This document shows positions 1,344-62,415 of a stretch of DNA of 64,000 nt, one piece after another. The stretch's first letter is position 1. Every line of letters starts with the position of its first letter. The position numbers and the translations under genes are program-made. The notes under the pieces were generated by a model. It was not told the DNA's origin. It worked only from the letters and a program-made list of their open reading frames with translations, and did not search any database. The stretch is from positions 1,517,501 to 1,581,500 of the forward strand of contig NZ_CP020370.1 in assembly GCF_002813775.1 (NCBI RefSeq), read 5' to 3'. The DNA comes from Candidatus Thiodictyon syntrophicum (lineage in GTDB: Bacteria; Pseudomonadota; Gammaproteobacteria; Chromatiales; Chromatiaceae).

Positions 1344-1451
1344 CCGGGTACGTCGGTTGGGGGGCACGACCACCGCGCCCGTGCGGCTAGCGTATCACCC
1401 CGGCCCGGGCCCTTCATGGCTCGTTCTGCCGGGGCCTGCGGCGAGCCGGCT

Positions 1452-3503: not shown

Positions 3504-3605
3504 CGTCGTCACCTCGGCATTTGGTTGTGGGAGGGCGGTCGCGCGGCGGACCCCGCGAGCCGTCACTCACAGTGCGCAACCGAGGAAAATACTCGGACTT
3601 TTGCG

Positions 3606-7989: not shown

Positions 7990-8435
7990 GGCTGGGGCCG
8001 CCGTGGGACTGGGGTGTGCCTAGTGTAGCCAAATCGTGGCGGGGACTGGTCGGGATGAACAGTCGGCGGCCAGGTCCCATCCGTGATCGGCGGTGCCCAG
8101 GTACGGGCAATCCGGACTGCCCCCCGTTCGTCGGAAATCGAGTCATCCGCCTGTGGACATCGCGGCTGTATGCTATAAAAGTGAACTACGTTACAGTTCG
8201 CGCAGAAATCGTCATCCAGCGGTCGTGCGCGAAGGTGAGACGGTTCGGACGGCAACCCAGGCGTAGCCTCGGGAGTCCGTCGTTGTGGTCGGACCAGCAC
8301 CGTCGCGGGGTGCCGGCTATCGGCACAAACGGTCGTTTTGCGTCGTCACTCAGAGCGGCTGCGGGGCTTCCAACGGGTTGGCTGCAGGCCAGGCCCGGCG
8401 CCACGCGGCCTGTTCCGAATCCTCTGGGGGGTTGC
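7990..8435. other. Divergent intergenic region, no gene seen
   Basis: This 446-base stretch separates the divergent starts of the giant membrane protein and the PEP-CTERM-like protein. It contains an AT-rich segment (tatgctataaaa, about 8168-8179) that could serve as a -10 region, but I see no convincing -35 partner, riboswitch or conserved structure. The open frames crossing it have no family character. Confidence 0.5.
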
Positions 8436-45356: not shown

Positions 45357-45361
45357 GCTGC

Positions 45362-46816
45362 TTACCCCTCGCTCCCATAGGGCGATAAGTCCGGCGGCGG
45401 GAGTTCCAGGTCCAGGACATCCTGGCGCCGCAGCAATTGAAGCGGGCTGGGCGCTGGGAGTTGGCGGCCCCGCGCCTGGATCAGATGGGCGATGTACTCG
45501 CTACTGAAGGCCTCGAACGTCAGGGCATCGGCTAGGGCGCGGGCGACCGCCTCCTCGCCGTGGATGTCCGCCAGGGCCACGATTTTGCGCACGTGGGACA
45601 AGGCGTTGCCGCGCCGCTCCAGCAAGCCGGTGTGGTAGTTCGCCGCCAGCGGTGACAGGGCCAGGAACCGCTGGAGGACGTGGGCGTCCTGGGCATGGCG
45701 GCGTTGCGCCACCAGTGCTTTGGCATGATCGGGATCGGCGATATCGCGGTGCCGCTCGTAGGAGCGGACATGGCGGGCGATCAGCGCTTGATCGTGATAC
45801 ACACACAGGTAATCGGGATACGCCTTGAGCGTCACCTGAACGCCGGCAAAGCGCGCCGGCACCGAATAGCGGTTGGCCTCGAAGGTCACCCGGAACTGGC
45901 GATTGGCCCGCACCGCCAGGACCCGACCGACATCGAAGGGGCGCGGATTGACCGATTGCAGATGAGTCTGCTCTTCGGCCCACAGATCGACCGGCCGGCG
46001 CTGGGTTTCGCGGTGCAGTCGGACATTGGCCACCGTCTCCAGCCAGACCCGCAGCGCCGGGTTGAGGGCGGTAAAATCCGGTAACTCCAGGCCGTTGAGG
46101 AAGTTCGCTTTGACGTACCCCACGCCGCGCTCCACGCGCCCTTTCTCGTTGCCTTTGGCGACGTTACAGGCCACGACCTCGAAGCCGTAGTGCCGGGCGA
46201 AATCGAGATACCGGGGATTGAACCGGGGCGGCTCGCCGCGCACATGCGCCAGCACCGCGGTGCGCAGATTATCGACCATCACCTTCTGGGGTACGCCCAG
46301 AGCGTTGAAAGCGTTGATGTGCGCGGCCAGAAAGTGCTCCATGGTCTGGGCCAGGGTGAACTCCACGTACAGTTGCCGGCTGTAGGCCAGGACCATGACG
46401 AAGAAGGACAGGCGCCGACGCGTCTCCCCGACGGCGATGGTGCCCCATTCGCCCCAGTCGACCTGCGCCACCTCGCCGGGGGCAAAGGCCAAGGTCAGGA
46501 ACGCCTCCCGCGGACGTGGGCGAATGGTGTGTACATACTCCTTGACGATGCTGATCCCACCGTCATACCCGGCCTCGCCGAGGCGCTGAAAGACCTGCTG
46601 GGCGCTGAGCGGATGGGCCTCGAGCCAACCGACGATGCGCCCTTTGAAGGGATCGAGCTTGCTGGGGCGTGCCGCGGTGGCCCGCTGCTCATAGGGGCGC
46701 GCCCGCCAGCGCCGCACGGTCTTGACGTTCAGCCCCAGGTCCCGGGCTATTTGCCGCGCCGTGAGGTGCTTGGCGTTGCCGTCGCGAATTGCACACCAGG
46801 TGGCGTAGTCGATCAT
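45362..46816 (-). CDS. istA: IS21 transposase IstA
   Basis: 484 residues. N-terminal helix-turn-helix (TARQIARDLGLNVKTVRRWR), then the DDE core: QVDWGEWG (first Asp, about residue 119), KVMVDNLRTAVL (second Asp, about 180) and EKGRVERGVGYVK (third, Glu, about 222). The C-terminal domain and coiled tail are complete. It starts four bases before the upstream gene ends (ATGA overlap). Confidence 0.93.
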   Translation of the reverse strand: MIDYATWCAIRDGNAKHLTARQIARDLGLNVKTVRRWRARPYEQRATAARPSKLDPFKGRIVGWLEAHPLSAQQVFQRLGEAGYDGGISIVKEYVHTIRPRPREAFLTLAFAPGEVAQVDWGEWGTIAVGETRRRLSFFVMVLAYSRQLYVEFTLAQTMEHFLAAHINAFNALGVPQKVMVDNLRTAVLAHVRGEPPRFNPRYLDFARHYGFEVVACNVAKGNEKGRVERGVGYVKANFLNGLELPDFTALNPALRVWLETVANVRLHRETQRRPVDLWAEEQTHLQSVNPRPFDVGRVLAVRANRQFRVTFEANRYSVPARFAGVQVTLKAYPDYLCVYHDQALIARHVRSYERHRDIADPDHAKALVAQRRHAQDAHVLQRFLALSPLAANYHTGLLERRGNALSHVRKIVALADIHGEEAVARALADALTFEAFSSEYIAHLIQARGRQLPAPSPLQLLRRQDVLDLELPPPDLSPYGSEG

Positions 46817-48318: not shown

Positions 48319-49990
48319 CGACCTGAACGCGGCGGACCTGGCGGCGCGGGCGGCGGCCCTGGTCGGGCCCGCCGATGGTGTCCCGGAGCGGGTCCTGGTG
48401 GTCGACGACCAGCCGGTATCCGCCCTCTTTGCCGCACGGGTCCTGGAGCAGGCCGGGATGATCGCGCAGCAGGTGTTCGATCCACTCCTGGCCCTGTCCG
48501 CCATGGACCGCTTCGCACCGGACCTGGTGCTCATGGACCTGCACATGCCTGGGGCCAGCGGGATCGAGTTGACCGCGGTGATCCGGGAACAGGAGCGCTA
48601 CGCCGACCTGCCGATCCTCTTCCTGTCCGTGGAATTGGACCCGGCGCGGCAGTTGGATGCACTGCGCGTCGGCGGCGACGACTTCCTGGCCAAGCCGGTC
48701 CCGCCGCAACGCCTGGTCGCGTGCGTGCGGCAGCGCCTCGCGCGGGCGCGCCATCAGGCCCAGGTCCGCAAGACGGCGGTGACGGCGTCGCGCGGGCCGA
48801 CTGGTTTGGTTGATCGGGAACGCCTGCTTGCCCGGCTCGATCGGCTGATCCATGCGCGCGCACGCGACTGGGGCCTGATCTATCTCGAACAGGCGGGGGA
48901 TGCCGCGGCCCTGCACTGGCTGGCCGGGGCGGCGAGCGCGCGGGCCGGGGCGGGTGCCCTGGCGGCGCGGGTCGGCGAACACGGGGTGGCCGTGCTCGTG
49001 CGGCGCGCCGCCCCGAGCCCCTTGGGCGCCTTTGCCGAGGCCTTGGGACAGGGCGTCCGGGTGGACTTGCAGGCAGGTGCCGCCGCCGTAGCGCCGGCCT
49101 TCGGGGTCGGTTGGTGCGCGGTTGCGGCCGGGGGCGGGGAATCGGTGACCCTGGTTTCCCGGGCGCGCAAGGTCGCCCGCATCAGTCTGCACCGCCGCCA
49201 AGGCCGGGCCGAGGGCTACCAGCGGCCGAGCGCCGGGCCGCATAGCGTCGCGGCGCCCCATCCCGTGCTGGAGGCGATCACGGCCAGCCAATTCCACCTC
49301 CTCTTCCAACCCATGGTGCCGCTGCGCGGGACGGCGGCCCCGTGCTACGAGGCGACCCTGCGTCTGGCCATGCCCGACGGCGAACTGCTGGCCCCCGGCG
49401 CCTTCGTACCAGCGGCCCTGCAAGCAGGGCAGGCGCCCCAGGTCGACCGCTGGCTGCTCGCCACGGGACTCGACGCCCTGCGCGAGCGCCGTGTGGCGGG
49501 GCAGCCGGTGGTGCTGTTCCTGCACCAGTCCTTCGCGAGCGCGGCGGACGAGGGCTGGGTCGAGCGGGTGCGGGACGCCATCGTGGCCCGCAACCTCGTC
49601 CAATGTCGCCCCGTCATCCAGTGGCAGTTGGCCGAGGTGGAGCGCTACCTGGATCTGGCGGTGCGCCGGGCCGGCCAACTGGTGATCCTGGGGATACGCC
49701 CGTGTCTCAACGCCGTCACGGAAGAGGAGTCCAGCCTGCAGGTGCTCGAGCGCCTGCCGGTGTCCTTTGTGCGGTTCGCGCGTTCGGCCGACTGGCGACT
49801 CCCGCCCGAGCGCCTGCGCGCCCTGGTGCATCGCGCCCACGCCCGCCGCGCCCGGGTGATCGTCACCGGGGTCGAGGGTCCCGAGGCCATCGCCCCCCTG
49901 CACCGCGCCGGGGTCGACCTGATCCAGGGACCCTATATCCAGCCGCCCGGCGAGGCGATGGATTTTGATTTTACGGATGGGCAGGGATAA
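47936..49990 (+). CDS. Receiver-degenerate GGDEF-EAL-like signalling protein
   Basis: 684 residues. The N-terminal ~120 residues look like a degenerate receiver. The main receiver (about 138-255) has VLVVDDQPVSALFAARVL with LVLMDLHMPGASG (phosphoacceptor Asp present) and the conserved Lys in LAKPVPPQ. A degenerate GGDEF-like region follows (RERLLARLDRLIHARARDW). The C-terminal EAL-like domain has FHLLFQPMVPL and YEATLRL where EAL should stand, LGIRPCLNAVTEEESSLQVL, and ends GPYIQPPGEAMDF. The EAL motif is altered and several metal ligands are missing, so it likely senses rather than degrades cyclic di-GMP (FimX-like). Its native upstream region was separated from it by the IS. Confidence 0.8.
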   Translation: MEINSMNAQTQVPSARGSVLLLSTDVALVAAMDPHFTGFGLDLAVFDTPAQLGRRVQDQGGPGGGRPPSLLVLVDLLAFPHVEAFASLGADARAGHPARPPLVCLGQPENLRQRLASLRVGAAAWLPRDLNAADLAARAAALVGPADGVPERVLVVDDQPVSALFAARVLEQAGMIAQQVFDPLLALSAMDRFAPDLVLMDLHMPGASGIELTAVIREQERYADLPILFLSVELDPARQLDALRVGGDDFLAKPVPPQRLVACVRQRLARARHQAQVRKTAVTASRGPTGLVDRERLLARLDRLIHARARDWGLIYLEQAGDAAALHWLAGAASARAGAGALAARVGEHGVAVLVRRAAPSPLGAFAEALGQGVRVDLQAGAAAVAPAFGVGWCAVAAGGGESVTLVSRARKVARISLHRRQGRAEGYQRPSAGPHSVAAPHPVLEAITASQFHLLFQPMVPLRGTAAPCYEATLRLAMPDGELLAPGAFVPAALQAGQAPQVDRWLLATGLDALRERRVAGQPVVLFLHQSFASAADEGWVERVRDAIVARNLVQCRPVIQWQLAEVERYLDLAVRRAGQLVILGIRPCLNAVTEEESSLQVLERLPVSFVRFARSADWRLPPERLRALVHRAHARRARVIVTGVEGPEAIAPLHRAGVDLIQGPYIQPPGEAMDFDFTDGQG

Positions 49991-50140
49991 GTCCGGGACT
50001 GCTTGACGGCAGCGAGGAATGGCTGCTGGTCCGTATCGGGGTTCAACTTGCCCGCGCGCAGGCCGAACCTTTAAGGTCTAGGCCCGGTTCCCGATGGCGT
50101 AGACTTGGCCGGGAGACCTGAAGCCAGCGGAGTCCGCCCT

Positions 50141-50374
50141 ATGCACGCGATCGAGTTTCAGACCACCGTCCACGACGGCATCCTCCAGATCCCGTTGGAG
50201 CACCAGCGGCAACTCAACGGCCGGGACCTGCGCGTCGTCGTGGTCGATACCCAGACCGAGGACGCGGGAGAGGCCGAGACCCTCTTCGCGCGCCTGCGCC
50301 GGGTGCGCATCGCCGGGCCGGCGGACCTGTCAATCGATCATGATTCCTATGTGATCGGCAATCAGGATGCTTGA
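50141..50374 (+). CDS. Antitoxin of a PIN toxin-antitoxin pair
   Basis: 77 residues. The N-terminus (MHAIEFQTTVHDGILQIP) resembles small AbrB-like/DUF2281 antitoxins, and an acidic C-terminus (LSIDHDSYVIGNQDA) is suited to covering the toxin. It overlaps the PIN gene start by eight bases. Start ATG 50141 with cggag upstream. Confidence 0.75.
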   Translation: MHAIEFQTTVHDGILQIPLEHQRQLNGRDLRVVVVDTQTEDAGEAETLFARLRRVRIAGPADLSIDHDSYVIGNQDA

Positions 50375-50771
50375 ACCGGTCTTTGTCGATACCGGGTATG
50401 TCCTGGCGCTGGTCAATGAGCATGAACAGCATCATGCCCAGGCCGTGCTGCTTGCGCAACGTTATGACCGCCACCCGGTCGTCGCCACCGATGCGGTCCT
50501 GCTTGAAATCGGCAATGCCCTGTCACGCCTTGCGCGCCCCGCCGCCGCGCAGATCATGGCAGACTTTCGCGAATCCGTGGGATCGACGGTGGTGCATTTG
50601 ACCCCCGAACTGTTCGATGCCGCATTCGCACGGTACCAAGGCCATGCCGACAAGACCTGGGGGTTGGTCGACTGTGTCTCATTCGTCGTCATGCGCCGCA
50701 TGGGGTTCAGGACCCTACTCGCATTCGACCAGCATTTCGTCCAGGCAGGTTTCGTGCTAGCCCGTCCCTGA
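50367..50771 (+). CDS. PIN-domain toxin (VapC type)
   Basis: 134 residues. The four acidic positions of the PIN nuclease are visible: VFVDTGYVLAL (first Asp), LLEIGNALSRL (Glu), WGLVDCVSFVVM (Asp) and AFDQHFVQAG (last Asp). A site-specific ribonuclease toxin by family. It pairs with the overlapping upstream antitoxin. Confidence 0.88.
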   Translation: MLEPVFVDTGYVLALVNEHEQHHAQAVLLAQRYDRHPVVATDAVLLEIGNALSRLARPAAAQIMADFRESVGSTVVHLTPELFDAAFARYQGHADKTWGLVDCVSFVVMRRMGFRTLLAFDQHFVQAGFVLARP

Positions 50772-50969
50772 CGAGCCGATTATCACGTTACCAACGTAAA
50801 GTTCGTTGGAGTGCTTTCGCGAGTGACGTTACTGTCTTTTTTGTCGGAGTTGGTGCGCTACTGTAATCTGCTGCGACCATTCTTGTGTTTTTCAGCTTGG
50901 TTCCAATGGCAATGAGAAAAACCGGGGCTACCGGTGCGGTAGGCGCTCTGGTCTCTCTTACCATTATGA
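50772..50969. other. Intergenic region, nothing recognised
   Basis: Contains AT-richer sequence after the PIN gene, with no gene, repeat or terminator that I can support. It separates the toxin gene from the EAL-like remnant. Confidence 0.4.
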
Positions 50970-51136
50970 TGGTGCATTGCGCCCATGTCCGCCGTGGCCG
51001 GGTGATCTGCACCGGCGTCGCGGGTTCCGAGGTCATCGCCCCCTGCGCCGCGCCGGGGTCGGCCTGATCCAGGGACCCTATATCCAGCCGCCGGGCGAGG
51101 CCATGGACTTCGACTTAGCGGAGGGGCAGGGTTAGG
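50970..51136 (+). pseudogene. Decayed second copy of the 3' end of the EAL-like gene
   Basis: The ~165 bases closely follow the end of the gene at 47936 (bases about 49830-49990). They contain gcccatgtccgccgtggcc, then cggggtcggcctgatcc, then the segment translating as GPYIQPPGEAMDFDLAEGQG and a stop, with small deletions that break the frame. The divergence is much greater than that of the 391-bp repeats, so this copy is older. The rest of the gap to 51250 shows no further gene. Confidence 0.78.
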
Positions 51137-51250
51137 GGCGGTCGGCGGCGAGGAATACCTCGCCGCTTCGGGTGAGAGTTGGCGCTAAACCACTGGGGAA
51201 TATGAAAGTCGTACACCTCTTCCCTTGTTCAGCGGGGAAGCACGGAAAGT

Positions 51251-54200
51251 TCAGCCCACGGCGGGTGCATTTGTCTTTTCTTCCCGTGAACTCAACTGGA
51301 ACTCCGGCAGCGGACGGAAGGAGCCGTCCTGCTCGCGTGTTAAAGCCAACGCCGCAGATTCGGTCTCAAGCATGTAGGCGATTTCGTCTTCCGATACCAC
51401 CCAGGGTCGCTTGTTCAGTTCTTTCGCGGCCTCGGCTTTGAGTTCCGCAACCGTGAAGGTCCTGCGTGTCGGTTTGTCCCCCGTGAACGCGCTTACGTGC
51501 TTGCGGCACGCGCGTAACTGCTGTCGTTTGAGGTCCATCACAAACCCATCCAATGCCGCCATCGCGGCTCCCAGCGGCCCGCCCTCGCTGCTGTCAAAGG
51601 GCGGGTCGACAAGACCCAGTGCCCGAATCTCTCGCCGCCGCGACCGGGCGTACCAGTCAGCCGAACCGCCCGAAGAATCGAGGTCGAAGCCGTAGACCTG
51701 CTCCAAGGCCATGCGGGCCGATTGGACGATATAAACGCCAGTGTATTCCTTCAGGGGGCCGCCTGCCAGTTGTACCTTCCGCATTTGATAAAGATCCCAA
51801 CTCAGGGCAATGGCATCCGCCAGCCAGCGCCCCAAAACCCAGGCCAAAGCAATGGCTGTTCGTTCGCCTAGATCAAGATCGTCCCATGACCGCGGGACCC
51901 GTAGATGCGAGTTTACGGAATCTACCTGCTTCCTTAGCCAAGGGAACTCAGGCTTATCCTCCTTTCTATCCAGGATCGTCGTCGGTTCTTGCTTGCTGTG
52001 GAGAAAGCCGGCGAGAAAACTCGCAGATTCCTTATTGTCCTCCTTAGCAACACGCATTACATACGCTATGCGTGCTTTATTATGGCAGACAACCAGCTGC
52101 GGTCCACACTCCGCCAGAAGCCCTTTGGCGGCCGAAGACATCGATGTAGCAATATCCCCGACACCAACGTATGTACGCTCGTGGGACTTCAAAGCGTTGC
52201 GTAGGAACACTTGAATATCGACATCGGCCTTCTGGCTCTTCGTGAGGGCGGACTCAAGTGCAAGTCCAAGTGCCTCGTTCAAGATGTCCTTGGCACGCGA
52301 CAGAGCCACATCTGCAGGCGAGGTCTGGGCCTCAAGGTGCTTCCACAGAGAGGACGCCAAGGTCTGTTCCTGATCTTGTGAACCAGCGAATGGTTGAAGA
52401 CACTTGACTAAGGCATCCTTAATAGCGGGCCATTGAGGGACATGCCCATCCTTTAAGGGGCCGCAGTACCTGAGAATAACTTCTGTGATCAACGTGGCCC
52501 GCTTAGCCAGCTCGTTCTCGTTTTGCGCAATGCCGAGATCTTGCGTCGTCTTAGCAAGCTGTAGCCGAATGGTTTTCTCGAGAGACTCACGGTCTGCGAG
52601 TTCTTGCCACTCAAGGACGAACTGAAGGCTCTTGCACGCCTCGGGCAGCAATGATTCCAGCTTGTTCTTTGACACGAAACCGCTGAGCGCGCCTTGTTGG
52701 AACGGATTGTCTTTCCTTGGCGGGGGGCCTGCGTGAAGATTCAGAATCGCCTTGGCGGTTTCGGCGGTACGCTCCATTAGCACTCCATCCTCGAATACTG
52801 CATAGGCCACGCCGGTTCCTTCCTTGAGAACCAGGTGGATGCCTTCTTCTCCCGCTCGACTATTGGACTCCGAGGCAAGAATGTCCGCTTCACCGTCGTT
52901 GAGAACCGTAACTACGGCAGTTTCCAGTAGCGGGACATCCTTCGCAGATTGGGCGAAATCCAATTGATGGAGCTTATGCGGATTACCCTTTGCAATAAGC
53001 GTCTCATAATTAAGCTTGTCGCCCCGCAGGACGCCGCTCACACCAACCGGAACACCATCGGCTATGGGGCCAGGATAGGCGATACCGACTGCATGAAATC
53101 CCTTGGAATCCGTTTCCGAGCCTGAAGGGTCCGCAGGGACTGAAGAATCCTCGCCATCCGGTGGGTTCTTGATACGGTCGCGTACATGCCTGAATAATGC
53201 CTTGACTGTGTTGGCTACATCTGTTTCAGAGTCGGAATTTTCGAGATCAGACCAGAAAATTGGGTCCGGATTATCGCCCGATTCGGCGAGCGATTTTGGA
53301 CTTGAAAGATTGCCGCCAATACTCGACCGCGAGTCGTAGGCCCAGTTGACCTCGAATAGATCATATTTTATCGAGGTTCCGCCGGCATCGATTCCAAGGA
53401 TTCGCAATGTCTCGGGAAATAGCTCGGGGTCTTTACTGGCCTTTGCGTCGTTGCCGATGCCAATGTCCGGCGCCCAGAATTCCCATCCACAGCCAATATC
53501 CCGTGGAAGGGGAGCCCTGGGGACCGTGTTTCCTGCAGTGTCGCACTCTGCCCGACGGGCACGCACCTGTTCAGTATAAAGTCTCATCAGGGGGCCGCCG
53601 TTCTGTTTGAACGCGGCTGCGATAAGTTTCTTCCATTCCCTGGCGCGATCGTCATCGCAGAGGTAATCAAGCACCAAGCGGCGTGGGGCAAAGGACACCA
53701 AAATTCCGATCATCATCGCGGCGGCGTAGCGTGCGATGAGTGCATCAGGCTGTCGGTCGTATTCTTCACCCCAAATTTCGGAAAGGCTTGAATCCAGGGC
53801 AGCGACATCGCCGATCTTCGGAACGTAGTGCGGAAGCCATACGGTAAACTGCACGTCACCGGCGGCCTTTGCCGCGACAGTGCGAGGTTCCTGCCCAGTG
53901 ATATGAAGGGCAATGAAGTCTCTAGGGCTGAAATCTCGGTAGGCGTGCAATATATGTCCGACAAGTGGCGACGGGAAATAATCGGGTCGCTTATTATGGG
54001 TTGAGTCTGCGTTGGAGTGAGTTGGGTTGTCACCCTGTTGACTGGATTCCTTCCAGCCGATCAGGTCGACATAGGCCAGGTGTTCCTTTCGCACCAGATC
54101 AAACAAGTCGGCGATCTTAAGCTTTAGCTCTAAGTCCTCAGGCGTGAGTTTGATCCTTTCTTTTTCCTGCTCTCGCTTTAAGTTCGCGATCTCATCGGCC

Positions 54201-55615
54201 AGCTTTCTAACATCGAACTTCGAGTCACTGGGGAGACCGAGGTTGCATCGGACTATATCGGCTAGCTTGGCAGGATCGCTGTCTCGGTCGTCTCCAGAGA
54301 AACGATAGCACAACACCTTGCCGGCTACTTGCTCAATTGTTGACTTGATAGGCGTTTCACTGGCGTGGGGGAGTCGGTCTTCCTCAGCGGTTGCGAAATG
54401 ATCTTTGCCAGGTGCGCAGTTGTTCAGACCGGTAGCCTTAGAATCGAATAGCCGATTGTTCCAGACTCGCAGGGAGCCGACCCGAGGGAGGCAAAGGGTT
54501 AGGTGTTTAGGTGGTTCGCCGCTGGCCACTTCCGTATGACTACGAGTGAGTTCATCCACTGCATATTGTCGGATCTCTTTCCATAAGCCATCGTTGGCAC
54601 GGTGCAAGTATCGCCCATAATGGATGTAAACCAGACCAGGCAACGAACCGGTGTGGTCGTCCGGGCGCTCGATCAGATAGTCGAAAAAACGTAAGGCTTG
54701 CGACTTAATTTGGGCGATCTGGTCGCGTTGCTCGGTTTGATGGTGTCGGGCTTGCAGACAAAGACTGTGCAGAATTAACGCCGCCGCAAGCCGTCGGCGG
54801 TGAGGGGAACCATCCGCCTGTGATGGTCGGTTGACGAAATTCGGCAAAAACTCAAACAGCGTGCGGGCGATTGCCTGGGCCGCCGCTTCCGCGATTTTAT
54901 CCGCCGTCCCCTGACACCTGACGCTCTTGTCTGCTGACGTCGCATTCCCGTTCTCAAAAAAGAAGGCGAAGGTTTCTGTCGGGTCCTTCGTGTCTTTGCG
55001 GCTTGTTTGCCCTGATGGTTTTGAGTGATACGGCTTCGTATCCAGGGTCCAGGCGGTCCTGACGAGTGTCTGATGGGCCAGAATACCGGCGACGAATCGG
55101 CAATGATCCTCCGGATAGCCGGATTGGCGTAGCTCGTTATAGGCGCGCACCGCCGAGTGGATCTCCCAAAGACAGTCCTGAAACCACTCGCAATGGCTGT
55201 AGAGGATGGATTGCACTACCAGCAGCGCCGGCGACGTGACGGCGTAACTCCCTCGCACCCAGGCACCCATCGGTCTGAAGGCCGGATCGAGTCGCTCGCG
55301 CACGTCAGCGTGCTTTTTCCGCGTGAGAAAGCGCTCCAGTGCGGCGAGCATTGCGGTGGCCGTGCGGGTGAGACCGCCGCGGGTCTCACGATGGAGCCCG
55401 CGCAGGACCGGAGGTAGATCATCGAGATCGGCGCGTGCTACCGCCGCGAGAATCTGTCGTACCTGCTGGACAGCACGGTCCATGAGCAGGGCTCGGATAG
55501 TGTTGCTGCGGTCTTCTTCATGGTTCGGGCCTTGAGGACCGCCGGGGATGCGGATGTAGGGATCGAAGGCTCCGGCGCGGTCTGCTGCGTATTTCACGGG
55601 GGTTGACTCCGTCAC
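51251..55615 (-). CDS. 1454-residue protein with a ROK/hexokinase-like domain
   Basis: Residues 1-~700 are helical, with no recognised domain (segments such as MGAWVRGSYAVTSPALLVV and YPEDHCRFVAGILAHQTLV). Residues ~735-1330 form an ASKHA sugar-kinase-like core: LRILGIDAGGTSIKYDLFEV (phosphate 1 loop, about 737), FHAVGIAYPGPIADGVPV, VTVLNDGEADILASES (catalytic-Asp position, about 905), LKEGTGVAYAVFEDG, and VQLAGGPLKEYTGVYIVQSA near 1280. The usual ROK zinc site (CGxxGCxE) is absent. A large insert (about 965-1150) separates the last two blocks. The C-terminal ~90 residues are Lys/Glu-rich. It would phosphorylate a sugar or sugar derivative if active. It is the last gene of a three-gene operon, 116 bases after the NAGPA-like gene. 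Base composition is more AT-rich in the middle than at its ends, suggesting fusion or transfer. Confidence 0.75.
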   Translation of the reverse strand: MTESTPVKYAADRAGAFDPYIRIPGGPQGPNHEEDRSNTIRALLMDRAVQQVRQILAAVARADLDDLPPVLRGLHRETRGGLTRTATAMLAALERFLTRKKHADVRERLDPAFRPMGAWVRGSYAVTSPALLVVQSILYSHCEWFQDCLWEIHSAVRAYNELRQSGYPEDHCRFVAGILAHQTLVRTAWTLDTKPYHSKPSGQTSRKDTKDPTETFAFFFENGNATSADKSVRCQGTADKIAEAAAQAIARTLFEFLPNFVNRPSQADGSPHRRRLAAALILHSLCLQARHHQTEQRDQIAQIKSQALRFFDYLIERPDDHTGSLPGLVYIHYGRYLHRANDGLWKEIRQYAVDELTRSHTEVASGEPPKHLTLCLPRVGSLRVWNNRLFDSKATGLNNCAPGKDHFATAEEDRLPHASETPIKSTIEQVAGKVLCYRFSGDDRDSDPAKLADIVRCNLGLPSDSKFDVRKLADEIANLKREQEKERIKLTPEDLELKLKIADLFDLVRKEHLAYVDLIGWKESSQQGDNPTHSNADSTHNKRPDYFPSPLVGHILHAYRDFSPRDFIALHITGQEPRTVAAKAAGDVQFTVWLPHYVPKIGDVAALDSSLSEIWGEEYDRQPDALIARYAAAMMIGILVSFAPRRLVLDYLCDDDRAREWKKLIAAAFKQNGGPLMRLYTEQVRARRAECDTAGNTVPRAPLPRDIGCGWEFWAPDIGIGNDAKASKDPELFPETLRILGIDAGGTSIKYDLFEVNWAYDSRSSIGGNLSSPKSLAESGDNPDPIFWSDLENSDSETDVANTVKALFRHVRDRIKNPPDGEDSSVPADPSGSETDSKGFHAVGIAYPGPIADGVPVGVSGVLRGDKLNYETLIAKGNPHKLHQLDFAQSAKDVPLLETAVVTVLNDGEADILASESNSRAGEEGIHLVLKEGTGVAYAVFEDGVLMERTAETAKAILNLHAGPPPRKDNPFQQGALSGFVSKNKLESLLPEACKSLQFVLEWQELADRESLEKTIRLQLAKTTQDLGIAQNENELAKRATLITEVILRYCGPLKDGHVPQWPAIKDALVKCLQPFAGSQDQEQTLASSLWKHLEAQTSPADVALSRAKDILNEALGLALESALTKSQKADVDIQVFLRNALKSHERTYVGVGDIATSMSSAAKGLLAECGPQLVVCHNKARIAYVMRVAKEDNKESASFLAGFLHSKQEPTTILDRKEDKPEFPWLRKQVDSVNSHLRVPRSWDDLDLGERTAIALAWVLGRWLADAIALSWDLYQMRKVQLAGGPLKEYTGVYIVQSARMALEQVYGFDLDSSGGSADWYARSRRREIRALGLVDPPFDSSEGGPLGAAMAALDGFVMDLKRQQLRACRKHVSAFTGDKPTRRTFTVAELKAEAAKELNKRPWVVSEDEIAYMLETESAALALTREQDGSFRPLPEFQLSSREEKTNAPAVG

Positions 55616-55731
55616 GGGATCAAAGGACCAGAGCGGGGACAGGGCGTATCACGCCGTCCCCGCCGCCATTCCGAACCCGATGGACGGCCTATGCCTCGAT
55701 CGCCCGCTCGCCTTCCTGGCGGACCGCACCC

Positions 55732-56694
55732 TTACACGATACTTGCCAGCGAGTCGAAGCCGCTCGTCGTCAACTCAATGACCAGGAGCGCCCGCCCCTT
55801 GGGTCGGAAATTCGGTGCCCGCAGCAGCGGTATCCGCTCGCCGTCCACGCCTTCCGGAAGGAAGGTGGGCATGATGGAGCCGGAGTTCTCGACGCAGACC
55901 GCGCGTTCGGCGCCTAAGTCACCGGCCCGGCGGCCCACGGCTTCCAGCAGGCCATGGGCGAAGACGCAAACCAGTTCCCCCGCCGCGCCGACGCCGAGGA
56001 CGGCATGGAGATAATCGGCGCAACGCGGCGGTGTCGGGTCCAGTCCGGCCAGGGCCGCGCGCATGGCGGCGGCGGCCTGCGGTCGGTCGGTGTAGAGGTT
56101 GGCCGTGAAGGCGTCGTGCAGCTGCGCCCAAGCGGCGCGGGTGGCGTCGGTGGCCAGCGGGTGGTTGCCGCGGGGGAGGTCGAAGACGTGTGAGTGGTCG
56201 GCGGCCTCGGTGAGGATCGCGTCCAGCAGGGCCGGCGGGTCGAGCCGCTCGTCCAGGACCGGGACCGCGGCGCAGAAGAAATCGGCGGCTGACCAGTCCT
56301 CTTGGGAGTCGCCGAGTGCCTGGCCCATGACGAGGCGCGCGTCGCGCGCGCCGATCCCGTAATAGGGGCGGCGGCTCTCTTGCGGGTCCTCCCCGGCTAC
56401 CGCGTGGACGCGACCGTCGAGGATCACCGGGCAGCGGAGGTTGACCAGGCTGTTGCGCATCCCGAACGCCAGCAGGGGCCGATCCCGGGCAATCACTCCT
56501 TGGTTCACGAGGTACTCAAGGTGCTCGTCCAGGCTGAACTTGGCCTCCGTGGCGGCGGGGCCCTGCCTCAGGAGGTCCTTCTCGTCCAGGCGTGCCCCGC
56601 TCGCCAGGGCGGGGATGCAGAGCAGCGCCCGCCGGTAATCCCGGACCACCAGCTCGACCCGGGCGCCGAATGAGAAGCTGGGCGGGTTGGGCAT
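55732..56694 (-). CDS. Phosphodiester glycosidase (NAGPA)-like protein
   Basis: 320 residues. The C-terminal block GELVCVFAHGLLEAVGRRAG ... GAERAVCVENSGSIMP then PNFRPKGRALLVIEL has the layout of phosphodiester glycosidases (PF09992: ...LVV.G.S.GATL.EL...LG...ALNLDGGGST...), but the usual DGGGS appears as VENSGS. The N-terminal part (YRRALLCIPALASGARLDEK) is not assigned. No signal peptide, so cytoplasmic, unlike most relatives. The resemblance is by eye only. It follows the regulator by eight bases. Confidence 0.55.
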   Translation of the reverse strand: MPNPPSFSFGARVELVVRDYRRALLCIPALASGARLDEKDLLRQGPAATEAKFSLDEHLEYLVNQGVIARDRPLLAFGMRNSLVNLRCPVILDGRVHAVAGEDPQESRRPYYGIGARDARLVMGQALGDSQEDWSAADFFCAAVPVLDERLDPPALLDAILTEAADHSHVFDLPRGNHPLATDATRAAWAQLHDAFTANLYTDRPQAAAAMRAALAGLDPTPPRCADYLHAVLGVGAAGELVCVFAHGLLEAVGRRAGDLGAERAVCVENSGSIMPTFLPEGVDGERIPLLRAPNFRPKGRALLVIELTTSGFDSLASIV

Positions 56695-56702
56695 GATTGG
56701 GT

Positions 56703-57485
56703 TCAGCCCTCGGGGGCGCGGTTGTGGATTGAATACTGCCAGTGATCGAAATAGGTCGCCTGCATGTATTCGAGGACGAAGCGGTCTTCCGAGCCCTCGC
56801 CGCTGGCGGCGTGGGTGGCGAAGAAGGACTGCTCGGCGTGCAGCACGGGTTGCAGGTGGACGTCACGCTTCAGATGGAGCAGGAGGTTGTCCTCGTAGCG
56901 GCTGGTGAAGCGTGAATGCAGCACTGTATCCCGCGACAGCAGGCGATAGCCGGCGCTGCGATACATATCGAGAACGGATTGTGTCTCAAAGTCATAGCCC
57001 TCGATGAATCCCGGCGCGAAGCGCGCGGGGTCGAGGTAGACGCGGTGAAAGACCTTGGGCTTGCCGTTCCAGTGGCGGACGCGGGCGATGACGTGGAAGG
57101 GTTGGTCGGGCGCGAGCCCCAGGGCCTCCTGGGCGCGGCACTCGGTGGTGTGCAGGGGGTGTTCGTCGTCGAACGGCAGTCGCGTCGCGGGCTGCTCCAG
57201 GAGCGCGGTGACCAGGCGCTCGTGGTGCTGCGCGGCGGTGGTGGAAAAGGAGAAGCGCGGGGAGGCAGCAGTGACAGACGGCAGTGCGACCTCGAAGCCC
57301 CCGTCCGGCGTCCCCACGAACTTGGCCTTGGCCACGGCCGCGGCGAGTGCCGTCGCGATCTTCTGCGGTTCGTACTCGAGCCGGGCCGCCAGGTCGGCCA
57401 GGGGCGGCAGCCGGGTGCCGGGGGCCAGCTTGTCCCCAACCACCAACCGGTCCAAGAGCGCTTCGATCGCCACGGTGTCTTTCAT
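56703..57485 (-). CDS. GntR-like regulator with UTRA ligand-binding domain
   Basis: 260 residues. Residues 1-70 resemble a degenerate GntR winged helix (LAPGTRLPPLADLAARLEY). Residues ~100-255 carry UTRA features: ECRAQEALGLAPDQPFHVIA, GKPKVFHRVYLDP, AGYRLLSRDTVLHSRF and YFDHWQYSIHNRAPEG. UTRA domains bind phosphorylated sugars or other small effectors, which fits a sugar-kinase operon. It is the first gene of the operon and lies directly beneath a strong hairpin (57513-57547). The helix-turn-helix is weak, so DNA binding is inferred. Confidence 0.7.
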   Translation of the reverse strand: MKDTVAIEALLDRLVVGDKLAPGTRLPPLADLAARLEYEPQKIATALAAAVAKAKFVGTPDGGFEVALPSVTAASPRFSFSTTAAQHHERLVTALLEQPATRLPFDDEHPLHTTECRAQEALGLAPDQPFHVIARVRHWNGKPKVFHRVYLDPARFAPGFIEGYDFETQSVLDMYRSAGYRLLSRDTVLHSRFTSRYEDNLLLHLKRDVHLQPVLHAEQSFFATHAASGEGSEDRFVLEYMQATYFDHWQYSIHNRAPEG

Positions 57486-57512
57486 ATCAACCTGCCAAAG
57501 TGGTCTGGAATG

Positions 57513-57547
57513 ACTCGGAAAATCGCCCGCTGGGCGATTTTCCGAGT
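57513..57547. promoter_or_regulatory. Perfect 16-bp-arm hairpin upstream of the UTRA operon
   Basis: actcggaaaatcgccc, a three-base loop, then its exact complement gggcgattttccgagt, 28 bases before the regulator's start codon. It may be an operator for the regulator (which is likely to bind palindromes) or an RNA structure in the leader. No T tract follows in either direction, so a terminator is less likely. Confidence 0.6.
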
Positions 57548-57650
57548 GGGTAAAGATAACACGATCGCCGGTTGCGGGGTTTGGTGCCTGCCAGGGGGCG
57601 TCGTTACGAAGCTATTTGAAGGCTGAAGTCTTGGGCTTTGGGGGTGCTCC

Positions 57651-58310
57651 TCAGGGGGGCGTCGGGCGGAGGCGCGCCTGGTTGGCCTGGAGGTCGCGCA
57701 CGGCCTCCCCGACCAGGCGGGCGCTGAGCCGGGTGAAGGCGGCGACCATGGCGTCCGGGGTGCTGCCCGCGAGCGGCTCTTCACCGCTGTAGGTGCGGCT
57801 GACCATGGAACCGCGGTCGGCGGAGCGCACCAGTGCCAGGTGCAGGGTGGCGGCCACCCGCGGGGGCTGCTCGGTCGCCAGGTGCTCGAAGCGTTCCAGT
57901 TCGCCGCCGAGCAGGAAGTCGGCGCGGGCGCGCTCGGCCGGGACCACCACGAACTGGAACACCCGGGCCGCCCGCAGGGCCGCTACCAGGGCGCGGGCCA
58001 GGGCGCTGGTGGGTGGTTCTTCCCACAGCAGGTCGTCATAGCGCTGGGTCACCAGGGGCTCGGCGCGGGTGCGGAACAGGACCTGCCGGGCGCCGAGAAA
58101 GCCGCGGGCGGACAGGTCGTTGACCAGCAGGATGGCCGGTACCGGGGTGCCGGCCGGGCCTGCCAGGGGCGCCGGGTCCAGGCGGTAGAAACGTTCGGAG
58201 CGCAGCGGTGTCGACGACCCGCAACCCGTAAGCCCGCCCAGGGCCAGCAGCAGGGCGAGGACCGCCGGGACCGGGCCGGCCCCGCGGCGGGCCCACCGCG
58301 CGATGGTCAT
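57651..58310 (-). CDS. PqiC-like (ABC_trans_aux) lipoprotein
   Basis: 219 residues. Signal sequence with lipobox LTGC. Contains YDDLLWEEPPTSALARALVA and FLLGGELERFEHL typical of the DUF330/ABC_trans_aux family that pairs with MCE proteins. Start at 58310 (ATGA overlap with the MCE gene) rather than the ATG three codons upstream, because it couples the two. Outer-membrane anchored; it probably joins a lipid-transport bridge. Confidence 0.82.
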   Translation of the reverse strand: MTIARWARRGAGPVPAVLALLLALGGLTGCGSSTPLRSERFYRLDPAPLAGPAGTPVPAILLVNDLSARGFLGARQVLFRTRAEPLVTQRYDDLLWEEPPTSALARALVAALRAARVFQFVVVPAERARADFLLGGELERFEHLATEQPPRVAATLHLALVRSADRGSMVSRTYSGEEPLAGSTPDAMVAAFTRLSARLVGEAVRDLQANQARLRPTPP

Positions 58311-59398
58311 TTGAACCATGGTGCCTGCTCCTCGACCTTGCGGCCCTTGATGATGACCGCCGGGTCGCGGCGCAGGTCGCGGGAGAAGGCGGCGAGGTTG
58401 CGGCTGGCGTCCTCGATATTGACGAGGATCGGGGTCAGGGAGGCATTGAGATCCTGCAACAGGCCCTGGGTGTCCTCCAGGGAGCGTTGCAGGGCCGGCT
58501 TGTTGTCGCTGACCAGGCCGCGCAGATCGCGGGCCAGGTCGCCGTATTGACGCGCCGTCCCCTTGATCTCTTCGGTGCCGCCGCCGAGCTTGGCGGAGAC
58601 CTCGGTGAGATTCTTCGACAGGGTCTGGACCGAGTCCAGGATGGCGGCGACCTTCTTGGGGTCGATGGAGGATTCGATGTTGGCGCTGAGCTTTTGCAGG
58701 CTCTCGAAGGCCCCCGCCAGGCGGTCGCGGTTGCCCGCCTGGTCGCCGCCGGTCCCGAGCAGGGTCTCGATGGTCTCGATCTGCGCCTTGATGCTCGCCA
58801 GGGCCGGGGCGATGGTCTCCTTGACCACACCGTCGAGTGATCGGGTCAGTTCGTTGAGCTTGGCCATCAGGTCCGGCTCCCGTGCCCGGGTCATGATCTC
58901 ATCCCCATCGCGCAGCGTCGTCGGCCGGTCGCTGGGGCGGATCAGGATGGCCTCGCCCTGGAGCAGGCCCGGTGAGCCGAGTTGCGCCAGGCTGTCGGTG
59001 GGCACCGGCCAGTCCCGCTTGATGCGCAGGGTGGCGCGGAAGCAGGGCAGGGCCGGGGAGCGCGGTGCGGCGTCGGCGGCGGGCGCCGGGCAGCGCCCGA
59101 GCCGCGCGTCCCGCCCGGGGAAGAGCGGGGTGACCCCCTCGACGAGGCCGATCACCTGGCCCTCCTGGATCACCTGGATGCCGTCGCCGAGCCCCGCGGC
59201 GTCCAGAAAATAGGCGTGCAGCCGATAGCTCCCGCCGAACAGTCCGGGCATGAGGAGCGCCAGGGCCGCGATGGCGACCGCCGCCATGGCGAGCACGAAG
59301 AGCCCGGAGTAGAACAGGTCGCGGTGGCGCTGCCGCGCCTCCCGCTTGCCGGGGGCGCCGATCTCGGGCGGCGAATAGAGTCGTTCCAGGCGGCTCAT
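58307..59398 (-). CDS. MCE/MlaD-family membrane protein
   Basis: 363 residues. A membrane anchor (about residues 30-55) is followed by an MCE domain (YRLHAYFLDAAGLGDGIQVI through LGSPGLLQGEAILI), with an insert of ~20 residues containing two Cys (LGRCPAPAADAAPRSPALPC). Long C-terminal helices (DLMAKLNELTRSLDGVVKET and on) would form the tube. Substrate-binding part of an Mla-type lipid transporter. The permease and ATPase usually directly upstream are absent here, so partners must be encoded elsewhere. Confidence 0.85.
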   Translation of the reverse strand: MSRLERLYSPPEIGAPGKREARQRHRDLFYSGLFVLAMAAVAIAALALLMPGLFGGSYRLHAYFLDAAGLGDGIQVIQEGQVIGLVEGVTPLFPGRDARLGRCPAPAADAAPRSPALPCFRATLRIKRDWPVPTDSLAQLGSPGLLQGEAILIRPSDRPTTLRDGDEIMTRAREPDLMAKLNELTRSLDGVVKETIAPALASIKAQIETIETLLGTGGDQAGNRDRLAGAFESLQKLSANIESSIDPKKVAAILDSVQTLSKNLTEVSAKLGGGTEEIKGTARQYGDLARDLRGLVSDNKPALQRSLEDTQGLLQDLNASLTPILVNIEDASRNLAAFSRDLRRDPAVIIKGRKVEEQAPWFK

Positions 59399-59951
59399 CG
59401 GGGCGTGTTCATCGGTGATAACAAATCTGGGATCCAGTCGTTAAGTCTCGGTCAACCGAGGATTGAGAGTGGCTCGTCCCGTCGGCCTGACCGGCGGAGC
59501 CCCTTTCGCTGACCGATTTCCGCTTTCGGGAGCGGTCCGCCCAGCGAGCGTAGAGTGTAGAGCAGAAACGACGTCGCTTCACGATGCGGCACCGCAAGCC
59601 CAGGACAAATCCGGCGCGTTCGGTGCGCCGAAATGCGCCCGCCATGGTCTGCAACCAGTCGGCGCGTGATCGCGCAGAGGCCCTAACCGCTGGCTTCTTA
59701 CAGTGGGCAACCGCAGTCTTTGTAACCCAATTGTCATGTTTCGTTTAGCCCCAAAGGAAAACCACAAACCTTACCAGAGAACGGCGGCCGGTCCGGCTTC
59801 TTTCCAGGTAGGTCGGCGCGCGCTTGACTCCCGGCGGCGGGCGCCCGATACTCTACACTCCAGAAGTAAAGCGCTGCAATTGCTGTTATCCCCCGGTGAT
59901 ACACCCGCCGCGCGTCGAGACCATTGCGGCATCCCGAAGGTTTATACGAAA
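59399..59951. other. Intergenic region between the MCE gene and the PqqD-like operon
   Basis: 553 bases between divergent genes. Some AT-rich stretches (about 59710-59770, tttgtaacccaattgtcatg) may hold promoters for the plus-strand operon. No gene or repeat I can support; the short open frames have no family character. Confidence 0.4.
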
Positions 59952-60419
59952 ATGAAGCAGAATCGTGCGTTTCGAGTTAACCAGCCTTCTGTCGCCAGCG
60001 AGTTGATCGATGGCGAAGCGGTGATCATGAATCTCGATTCTGGTAACTATTACAGTACGCGCCAGATCGGTGGGCAGCTCTGGAGTTGGATCGAGGAGGG
60101 TGTTAGCCAGGGCGAACTCGTATCTCGCTTGATGGTTGACTATGCCGGTGAGGCCGGCCTTATAGCCAGCGCCGTCGAGACATTTATCGGCGCTTTACTC
60201 GCACACGAATTGATCGTCGAAGCATCTCCATCAGCAGCCCGGATTCAATCGCCGCCAGCCGCAGCAGCGGCGCCGTCGGCATTGGAACGGCCGCCCTTCA
60301 CGCCGCCGGTGCTCGAGGTGTTTGCCGACATGCGCGATCTCTTGCTACTGGATCCCATCCATGATGTGGCGGAAGTCGGCTGGCCGACGGCCAAGCCCAG
60401 CCGTCCGGCGGTGAATTGA
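59952..60419 (+). CDS. PqqD-like protein with a conserved-looking C-terminal tail
   Basis: 155 residues. Residues ~1-90 form a PqqD-type RiPP recognition element: ELIDGEAVIMNLDSGNYYST, GQLWSWIEEGVSQGELVSRL and FIGALLAHELIVE. A Pro/Ala linker follows, then a tail (about residues 117-143: VFADMRDLLLLDPIHDV then GWPTAKP) that resembles small stand-alone peptides I remember beside PqqD and nucleotidyltransferase genes. PqqD-type domains bind leader peptides for modification. Start is ATG 59952 (MKQNRAFRVNQPS). Confidence 0.75.
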   Translation: MKQNRAFRVNQPSVASELIDGEAVIMNLDSGNYYSTRQIGGQLWSWIEEGVSQGELVSRLMVDYAGEAGLIASAVETFIGALLAHELIVEASPSAARIQSPPAAAAAPSALERPPFTPPVLEVFADMRDLLLLDPIHDVAEVGWPTAKPSRPAVN

Positions 60420-60538: not shown

Positions 60539-61258
60539 ATGAAAGACCTTGGGGCCCAGATCAGTGCGATAGTGCCTTGCTATAACACGGCGACCTACCT
60601 TGCGCAGGCATTGGACAGCATCTTTGCTCAGATACCGGCGCCATGTGAGGTGATCGTCATCGACGATGGCTCAACCGATGCGAGCGCAGCCATCGCTACC
60701 GGTTACGGTGACCCGCGGGTGCGCTGTTATCACCAAAGCAATCAAGGCATCTCTGCCGCACGCAACCGCGGCCTGAGCCTTGCCAGCGGCGCAGTGATTG
60801 CGTTCCTGGATGCCGATGACCTGTGGCCGCAGGACAGTTTGGGCGCCAGGCTGCGACGCTTGGAGGCCACTCCGGACCTCGATGGTGTGTTCGGGCGGGT
60901 CGCTTGCTTCATCAGCCCGGAACTGCCGGAGCAGATACGCAACAGTTGGTTTTGTCCGCCGGGGTCGCAGCCTGGGCGCATGGCGGGCTCGCTGCTCTTG
61001 CGGCGGCGTGCCTTTGAATGCGGCGGCACCTTCGATGTGGGATTGCAGGTCGGAGAAGTTATCGATTGGTGCGCGCGCGCGCAGGAACGGGGGATGCGCT
61101 TGGCGCAAGTGGACGCGGTGGTATTACATCGCCGTATTCACGGTGCCAACACCACGTTACGAACCCAACGTCTGCAGGCCGACTACCTGCGCGTGCTCCG
61201 GGCCACCTTGGAACGTCGTCGCACTGCCGCCGATGGAGTGGAGCCGACGGTGCGATGA
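60539..61258 (+). CDS. Family 2 glycosyltransferase
   Basis: 239 residues. GT-A fold: SAIVPCYNTATYLAQALDSI (nucleotide-binding start), VIDDGSTDASA (about residue 42), QGISAARNRGLSLASGAVIA and LDADDLWPQDS (DXD metal site, about 89-92). The C-terminal part includes WCARAQERGMRL. It would transfer a sugar from a nucleotide-sugar donor. The stop overlaps the start of the nucleotidyltransferase gene (ATGA). Confidence 0.9.
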   Translation: MKDLGAQISAIVPCYNTATYLAQALDSIFAQIPAPCEVIVIDDGSTDASAAIATGYGDPRVRCYHQSNQGISAARNRGLSLASGAVIAFLDADDLWPQDSLGARLRRLEATPDLDGVFGRVACFISPELPEQIRNSWFCPPGSQPGRMAGSLLLRRRAFECGGTFDVGLQVGEVIDWCARAQERGMRLAQVDAVVLHRRIHGANTTLRTQRLQADYLRVLRATLERRRTAADGVEPTVR

Positions 61259-62415
61259 ATGACTACCTGGCCCACCCGGATCGACTGTGGCCGTCCAACG
61301 AGCAACGCCTGCTGTTGCGTGCCGCTTTACTCGATGGGGAAGAAGCCGTTGCCGCATTTCAACTCTGGCATCACGGCATCGACCTGGAGGCGGAGTTCGG
61401 ACGCTCGGCGATGCGGCTGTTGCCCTTGGTGTGCGCCAATTTGCTCCGGCTGGGGGTAAATGATCCACTGCTGGGGCGCCTCAAGGGTGTTTACCGCTTG
61501 ACCTGGTGCGAAAATCAGCGTCTGTTTCATAAGATGCAACCGGTGCTTGCCTATTTACGCCGGGGCGGAGTGGATCTGCTGCTGCTCAAGGGTGCGCCCC
61601 TAGTAGTCAGCTATTACCGCAGCCATGCCTTGCGGCCGATGACCGATGTCGATCTGGCGGTCCGTCCGGAGCAGTTGGGCCGCGCGCTTGGTCTGCTGGC
61701 AGAATTAGGATGGCATGGCATCAAGTCCGCGCCGACGCCGGACGACTTGCGGTACGGCCACGCGCTGCTGTGTACGGACGGCTTCGGCGGTGAGTTGGAT
61801 CTTCATTACCATTTTCTTCGCGACTGCTTGACTGCCGCGGCCGACCGTTGGTTTTGGTCGGCCGCGGAACCAGTGGACTTCCTCGGCGTTGACGCGCTGC
61901 AACTGGAACCGACCGCCCTGCTGTTCCACACCATTCTGCACGGGGTGCGTTGGAATGAAGAGACGCCGATCCGCTGGATTCCCGATGCCCTGTCTGTCAT
62001 TCGCGAACGCGGTGATGTAATCGACTGGGAGCGGCTGATCGATTTTGCCGCTGCGCAAGAACTGACTCACCGCCTGGCGTTGGGGCTGACTTATTTGGGG
62101 CGAAACTTTGGGCTCAACCTTCCCGCCCCGGTGTGGTCGCGCTTGCAGCGGTGCCGGTCCGGCCTCCGCGAACGCATCGTTAACACCGCCGTGCTGGGCA
62201 ATTACTCGCGTTGGTATCGTCATCCGCTCACCAAACAATGGATGATCTTCGCTGATTATTGTGGTGGTACCAAGGCCTGCGGCCCGCTCGATTTCACCGT
62301 TGGCTTCTCCCATTACCTGCGGTATCGCTGGCAATTGCGGGGACGCAGTGAGATCCTCCCGGCTGTCTGGCGTGGGCTGCGGCGGCGCTTGAGCGGCACC
62401 GGGCGTACCTCCTGA
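61255..62415 (+). CDS. NTP_transf_5-family nucleotidyltransferase
   Basis: 386 residues of PF14907 (uncharacterised nucleotidyltransferases common in peptide natural-product clusters). LLLLKGAPLVVSYY and RPMTDVDLAV (metal Asp pair, about residues 128-132) are the family core; later DLHYHFLRD, FHTILHGVRWN and IRWIPDALSVI. No known substrate. Translationally coupled to its neighbours by ATGA upstream and TGATG downstream. Confidence 0.85.
   Translation: MNDYLAHPDRLWPSNEQRLLLRAALLDGEEAVAAFQLWHHGIDLEAEFGRSAMRLLPLVCANLLRLGVNDPLLGRLKGVYRLTWCENQRLFHKMQPVLAYLRRGGVDLLLLKGAPLVVSYYRSHALRPMTDVDLAVRPEQLGRALGLLAELGWHGIKSAPTPDDLRYGHALLCTDGFGGELDLHYHFLRDCLTAAADRWFWSAAEPVDFLGVDALQLEPTALLFHTILHGVRWNEETPIRWIPDALSVIRERGDVIDWERLIDFAAAQELTHRLALGLTYLGRNFGLNLPAPVWSRLQRCRSGLRERIVNTAVLGNYSRWYRHPLTKQWMIFADYCGGTKACGPLDFTVGFSHYLRYRWQLRGRSEILPAVWRGLRRRLSGTGRTS

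Follow-up and report, generated by a model that had tools for sequence, protein, structure and literature searches.

Linked genes for a divergent ASKHA/ROK-like protein and a putative distant NAGPA relative in Candidatus Thiodictyon syntrophicum and in unrelated bacteria

Sugar phosphodiesters and nucleotide sugars are handled by several well-described protein families: NAGPA removes N-acetylglucosamine (GlcNAc) from a phosphodiester, YvcK and GlmU belong to UDP-GlcNAc families, and the ROK kinases include amino-sugar kinases, with ROK repressors existing alongside them. Here we describe a locus whose products resemble some of these families remotely. It lies in a 64,000-nucleotide stretch (the window) of the genome of the purple sulfur bacterium Candidatus Thiodictyon syntrophicum (7,738,984 bases in three contigs) and comprises three genes, for a very large ASKHA/ROK-like protein (P1), a smaller protein that matches no Pfam family (P2), and a GntR/UTRA-type transcription regulator (P3). 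An original prediction, made from the DNA sequence of the window, had delimited these genes and proposed that they form an undescribed system. All three open reading frames (ORFs) were confirmed, and no title describing the P1/P2/UTRA set was found in a literature search that fell short of most subscription journals, consistent with the proposed lack of a described counterpart. Our main finding is that P1 and P2 occur together in four independent loci.

Linkage of P1 and P2 across lineages

Both proteins are rare. P2 was present in two of 55 genomes (the window's own and its relatives), both of them from the genus, which has eight members in that set. Among 369 genomes from the class, only that of the window held P1; at an E value of 0.01, it was found in two of 398 genomes of the phylum, namely the window's own and one contig of another proteobacterial class. 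That contig, from a Magnetococcales bacterium (L024; 4236 bases) and found with P1 alone, encodes a P1 relative of 676 amino acids (aa) that is cut at its 5' end, then a UTRA regulator overlapping it by 4 nucleotides (nt) and, 21 nt on, a P2 relative that carries DNGGS and is 34% identical to P2 (E 2e-43). An alignment of P2 retrieved three relatives among 91 pattern matches in the genome_contigs collection, from the sister Thiodictyon genome, the Magnetococcales contig, and a member of the Desulfobacteraceae (L023). When 395 genomes of the phylum of L023, under its NCBI name Thermodesulfobacteriota, were searched with such an alignment, two were hit, the L023 seed itself and a further genome, G988; the same two came from 291 genomes of the class of G988, and in the class of the Magnetococcales contig (48 genomes) the seed alone was hit. 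In L023, the genes for P2, a radical SAM protein, ThuA, and P1 follow one another in one direction, the 1247-aa P1 ending in a Nudix-like domain. In G988, which has multihaem cytochrome genes beside the pair, only 11 nt separate the P2 gene from that of P1, whose longest ORF spans 1111 aa.

A P1 relative is therefore present at all three further loci, one of which was reached via P1 alone and two via P2 alone. Among the five P2 loci, only that of the sister genome is without P1. Co-occurrence of the genes was the check that the original prediction had named beforehand, and the pairing of P1 and P2 in unrelated bacteria argues that they form a real functional unit; we hold the existence of a P1-P2 module with high confidence. 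The UTRA gene accompanies P2 at three of the five loci (window, sister, and Magnetococcales), corresponding to two of the four independent ones, and none was seen among the neighbors scanned in L023 and G988, which covered most, but not all, ORFs. Of the three-gene set as predicted, the P1-P2 part is kept, whereas the regulator seems to lie outside the conserved core and P1 is missing in the sister. Further searches returned no other relatives: P1 alone gave 11 pattern matches in genome_contigs, none of them a relative, P2 and the P1 of L023 (the two proteins queried) gave none in phages, and plasmids and viral contigs likewise held none. The genome_contigs, plasmid, phage, and viral scans rest on short exact peptide patterns, by which distant relatives are missed.

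The sister Thiodictyon genome (G006) encodes P3 and a P2 that is 95% identical to that of the window on an unbroken contig. Since about 330 bp stand there in place of 4950 bp in the window, P1 is absent, and the gap of roughly 330 bp holds no detectable relic of it (best tblastn E 1.9). P1 was also found in none of the seven other genus members, with a query that matched the window's genome in the wider searches. That P1 was inserted late, next to an existing UTRA-P2 pair, is suggested by its base composition (see below) and its absence in the sister; because P1 and P2 occur together in unrelated lineages, however, loss of P1 by the sister would account for the pattern more simply. In the stretches from five other genus members (some only 5 to 20 kb long), the ABC-auxiliary/MlaD genes were the sole part of the 14 kb compared that matched, and the remaining member (G003) gave short matches only. 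Between the sisters, the nonsynonymous (dN) and synonymous (dS) substitution rates are 0.033 and 0.19 for P2 (dN/dS about 0.17) and 0.031 and 0.20 for P3 (about 0.15), and these low ratios suggest purifying selection on both genes.

The layout of the locus is given in Table 1. All three genes lie on the same strand, with 8 nt between P3 and P2 and 116 nt between P2 and P1. The P1 gene also has a deviating G+C content at third codon positions (0.61, versus 0.87 and 0.86 for the two other genes); judged from the sequence, the single P3-P2-P1 transcript implied by the proposed operon is likely. In the surroundings, a 103-nt direct repeat (86%; 49894-49996 and 51039-51141) consists of the 3' end of a response-regulator/EAL gene, duplicated beyond a PIN-domain gene and the small ORF upstream of it (50105-50771), which points to an earlier rearrangement. 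Farther away lie an IS21-type element with IstB and a Mu-type transposase (44610-46816, minus strand) and a Glycosyltransferase 2 gene overlapping the ORF of an NTP_transf_5 protein (60539-62412, plus strand).

Table 1. Features of the locus, in window coordinates
Feature	Position	Strand	Remarks
P1, ROK/ASKHA-like kinase with long N-terminal extension	51251..55615	-	1454 aa, GTG start
P1 residues 739-1320, ASKHA/ROK-like kinase region	51656..53401	-	phosphate-1, connect-1, ND, phosphate-2, and adenosine motifs
P1 residues 504-735, pre-kinase block common to relatives	53411..54106	-	weak for window protein
P1 residues 1-503	54107..55615	-	outside the range of the relatives' profile (504-993)
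P2, putatively remotely NAGPA-like, family without Pfam match	55732..56694	-	320 aa, ATG start
P2 motif [DE]N[GS]GS, residues 269-273	about 55876-55890
P2 motif EAADxSHxxxLPRGxHPxxT, residues 163-182	about 56149-56208
P3, GntR/UTRA transcription regulator	56703..57485	-	260 aa, ATG start; first gene of the set
Perfect 35-nt palindrome, 16-bp arms	57513..57547		lies 27 nt before the UTRA start; resembles a terminator or an operator

Family relationships of the three proteins

P1 had been described as a giant protein with a sugar-kinase core, including the phosphate loop and the catalytic-Asp region, and this description was borne out. After about 738 preceding residues, the window protein displays GIDAGGTSIK (residue 741), NDG (906), GTGVA (933), and LAGGP (1283), and the phosphate-1 motif, the catalytic D of ND, the phosphate-2 motif, and the adenosine motif are present in all four P1 members. 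A profile of the three relatives matched the window protein with an E value of 1.5e-13 over 433 columns (residues 504 to 993). In comparisons by hhalign with 12 ROK sequences, drawn from 20 loci, the P1 family scored 80.9 (best of 100 shuffles, 26.6), with the match confined to the N-terminal half of the kinase region; the score was 71.8 for the relatives without the window protein and 51.3 for the latter by itself (E 2.9e-6; best of 100 shuffles, 24.9). When the PDB was searched with the family profile, a glucokinase came out on top (E 0.0024), followed by a hypothetical sugar kinase (E 0.013) and, from 0.18 on, by unrelated entries, and the NCBIfam hit of P1, a polyphosphate-glucose phosphotransferase, stayed below threshold (E 0.017); PHROGs gave no match. 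Membership of P1 in the ASKHA fold class is thus well supported at the level of sequence. Within that class the protein appears nearest to the ROK kinases, although its placement in the ROK family itself would be tentative.

Between the Magnetococcales protein and the two other relatives, the pre-kinase block is clearly shared (E 3.1e-11), and its three-row profile also scored the window protein at 28.1, above the best of 200 shuffles (24.5; P 0.006); the signal weakened with a two-row profile (P 0.036), and the Magnetococcales block alone gave no match (P 0.25). For residues 1 to 503, there was no homologue and no match among Pfam, NCBIfam, or PDB sequences. An AlphaFold model of residues 340 to 1075 of the L023 protein, covering block and kinase, from three alignment rows, was too poor to use (mean predicted local distance difference test score [pLDDT], 33.9); it returned 456 PDB matches at an E value of up to 10 and none at up to 0.001, with several ROK entries among the insignificant rows listed.

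The P2 family comprises five members that can be aligned over their length, and all five share RNxLxNLRC, EAADxSHxxxLPRGxHPxxT, and [DE]N[GS]GS; these family-specific conserved polar residues suggest an active site. As noted earlier for the window protein, VENSGS occupies residues 268 to 273, and no signal peptide is apparent by eye, in keeping with the proposed cytoplasmic location. DGGGS itself is found in no member: the window and sister proteins have ENSGS and the relatives DNSGS, DNSGS, and DNGGS. None of the five matches any Pfam family, even at an E value of 10, so that the cut-off of NAGPA (PF09992) is not reached; NCBIfam and PHROGs gave no match for P2, and its profile met nothing among PDB sequences beyond one chance match (E 0.7). 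When compared with seven NAGPA domains retrieved by PF09992, the family nevertheless scored 36.2 by hhalign (P 1.4e-4), over 45 C-terminal columns that end at DGGGS in the same register, against 21.8 for the best of 100 column shuffles, 11.5 for the reversed profile, and 16.2 for ROK as an unrelated family. The relatives without the window and sister proteins gave a P value of 4.9e-5, and the likeness is detectable only because distant relatives were included. A very distant relationship of P2 to NAGPA is accordingly plausible: the predicted resemblance to phosphodiester glycosidases would hold as a remote relation of the family, not as one visible from P2 and its sister copy alone. An AlphaFold model of P2 from a four-row alignment (pLDDT 40.0) was again too poor to use, and the de-capping activity suggested in the original prediction found no support.

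The predicted UTRA domain of P3 (PF07702) scored 32.1 bits, above the Pfam cut-off of 23.8, and a GntR match of 20.9 bits fell below its cut-off of 27. The sister copy is 94% identical, and in the Magnetococcales regulator both UTRA and GntR domains exceed their Pfam cut-offs. The sugar-phosphate ligand that had been suggested for this regulator found no support, the best NCBIfam match of P3 being phnR, a phosphonate regulator, below threshold (E 1.3e-4). The palindrome upstream of P3 folds well as DNA (z -5.3), is identical in the sister genome, and may serve as an operator. Its similar copies elsewhere in the source genome and its shape (A-run, GC-stem, T-run), which also fits a bidirectional terminator, weigh otherwise. 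A terminator scan of positions 50000 to 60000 found seven sites against a shuffle mean of 8.8, hence no excess, and the palindrome was not among them.

Candidate functions of the module

What might this pair of proteins do? Companion genes in L023 offer some indications. At 5692-7947 (plus strand), a 751-aa protein fuses a CofD/YvcK-like part to a GlmU-like nucleotidyltransferase (TIGR01826, E 5e-22, and TIGR01173, E 4.7e-16, both below the NCBIfam cut-offs; Pfam CofD above its cut-off); the Nudix domain of P1 scored 20.9 bits, just under the cut-off of 21.1, and the radical SAM protein is MoaA-like (94.6 bits, below the model cut-off of 284). Directly before its P2 relative, L023 encodes a 520-aa protein that has an HETGH motif (HExxH type) but matches nothing in Pfam (8148-9710, plus strand), and it also encodes a divergent sigma-54 AAA regulator (1121-3775, minus strand) with a very weak N-terminal metallo-beta-lactamase match (Pfam E 0.085), whose AAA part is nearest to RtcR models and whose match to the NCBIfam "GPMC system" regulator lies below the cut-off.

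Given protein relationships of the UDP-GlcNAc, amino-sugar kinase, and NAGPA types, handling of an amino-sugar phosphodiester or a nucleotide sugar appears to be the most economical interpretation. We tentatively propose, with a probability of roughly 0.38, that the genes belong to an accessory module spread by horizontal transfer, with P1 and P2 as its core and a GntR/UTRA regulator recruited in some lineages, and that this module serves a small cytoplasmic pathway for a phosphodiester-linked (amino-)sugar. P2 would cleave or bind the sugar phosphodiester, the sugar thus freed would be phosphorylated with ATP by the kinase part of P1, and the UTRA protein, where present, would derepress the genes once it has bound the product or another phosphorylated compound related to it. 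This scheme supposes that P1 and P2 are both active enzymes acting in sequence on one substrate, with all three genes under the control of the UTRA protein; the putative substrate, an amino-sugar or nucleotide-sugar conjugate, is suggested by the Nudix, YvcK-like, GlmU-like, and NAGPA-like companions.

Several observations weigh against this proposal. The sister genome keeps P2 and P3 without P1. P1 itself has no Pfam match and its relatives reach only 15.2, 13.8, and 12.5 bits, below the ROK (PF00480) cut-off of 22.9; the ROK zinc motif CxCGxxGC is missing from all four members; and for the C-terminal half of the protein from G988, HypF_C_2 (E 1.9e-4, below the cut-off) and UxuA (0.017) score better than ROK (0.043). 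On the side of P2, an N follows the residue at the D position in all five members and the D is replaced by E in window and sister, the alignment with NAGPA is limited to the 45 C-terminal columns, and P2 with its sister copy alone shows no hhalign match to NAGPA (P 0.31). The UTRA proteins of the window and the Magnetococcales contig have no pairwise similarity by BLASTP (E 7.4). Finally, sugar-nucleotide companions occur at one of the four loci, the Magnetococcales contig being too short to tell.

Alternatively, the module might act in signaling or defense, with the ASKHA domain of P1 making or sensing a phosphorylated sugar or nucleotide, its N-terminal part serving as a sensor or effector, and P2 destroying or capping the signal. 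The sporadic, mobile-looking distribution (P2 in two of eight genus members), the two-gene island of G988 beside its cytochrome genes and with sulfur-transport genes nearby, and the concentration of domains in a single large protein would suit such a role, as would a match of the Nudix part of the L023 P1 to the PADLOC candidate model PDC-S07 (E 5.3e-5) and the RtcR-resembling regulator about 6 kb from P2 in L023. Yet patchy occurrence fits any accessory gene, PADLOC matches none of the three window proteins and just two of ten from the relatives' loci, through the Nudix part and the AAA domain, and neither phages (for P2 and the L023 P1) nor plasmids hold relatives. The defense role raised in the original prediction thus has no direct support, and we regard signaling or defense as possible, though unlikely. 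Also unlikely is an undescribed mobile signaling or conflict system in which the N-terminal half of P1 would sense a trigger and switch the ASKHA domain to make a phosphorylated sugar or nucleotide-sugar signal, P2 would remove that signal, and regulators (UTRA, sigma-54 AAA) and enzymes (Nudix, YvcK/GlmU-like, radical SAM) would be swapped between lineages.

Other readings start from P1 alone or from its neighbors. A pathway for modifying a cofactor or small molecule, in which the ASKHA protein would act as a carbamoyl- or phosphotransferase with P2 as a transferase-like partner, could be read from the MoaA-like radical SAM protein and the CofD-like fusion near the pair in L023 and from the subthreshold HypF_C_2 match in G988; since neither G988 nor the window showed such neighbors and the first half of the kinase region matches ROK, we find this quite doubtful. 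P1 might also be a noncatalytic ROK-type sensor or regulator, as its great size and divergence and two ROK repressor entries among the insignificant PDB rows of the L023 model search could hint, but the phosphate-1, ND, and GTG motifs are kept in all four members and P1 is without any Pfam domain, one for DNA binding included, which renders this improbable. Least probable is that the three genes are unrelated neighbors: the differing composition of P1 and its absence in the sister would agree with chance proximity, whereas relatives of P1 and P2 lie adjacent or near each other at three other loci found from both search directions, so that this explanation is contradicted for P1-P2 and may hold only for the UTRA gene.

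Whatever its function, the module brings to light a family that no Pfam model matches (P2) together with a divergent ASKHA/ROK protein of very large size (P1), and a linkage kept across two phyla gives each of them a testable partner. If the amino-sugar proposal is true, chemistry of the phosphodiester-glycosidase type would extend to the cytoplasm and be coupled to a dedicated kinase; a signaling function, if true, would represent a new type of system.

Comparison with described systems

P1 shares with the ROK family sugar kinases (PF00480; e.g., glucokinase and N-acetylmannosamine kinase) the order of the phosphate-1, ND, phosphate-2, and adenosine motifs and, over the N-terminal half of the kinase region, significant profile similarity. 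In contrast to them, it lacks CxCGxxGC, has a long stretch between phosphate-2 and adenosine motifs, stays below the Pfam cut-off, and, in the three members that are not truncated, carries about 550 to 740 residues ahead of the kinase. The P2 family remotely resembles NAGPA/phosphodiester glycosidase (PF09992) in its 45-column C-terminal match ending at the DGGGS position, and differs in having [DE]N[GS]GS there, no apparent export signal, its own invariant motif EAADxSHxxxLPRGxHPxxT (5/5), and no Pfam match (5/5). With GntR/HutC-type UTRA regulators, the window and Magnetococcales proteins have in common a UTRA domain above the cut-off, although here it stands beside P1 and P2 and the two regulators are mutually dissimilar. 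Finally, the L023 fusion matches UDP-GlcNAc-related families, as do YvcK/CofD-like and GlmU-like proteins, but unites both in one 751-aa protein at a single locus.

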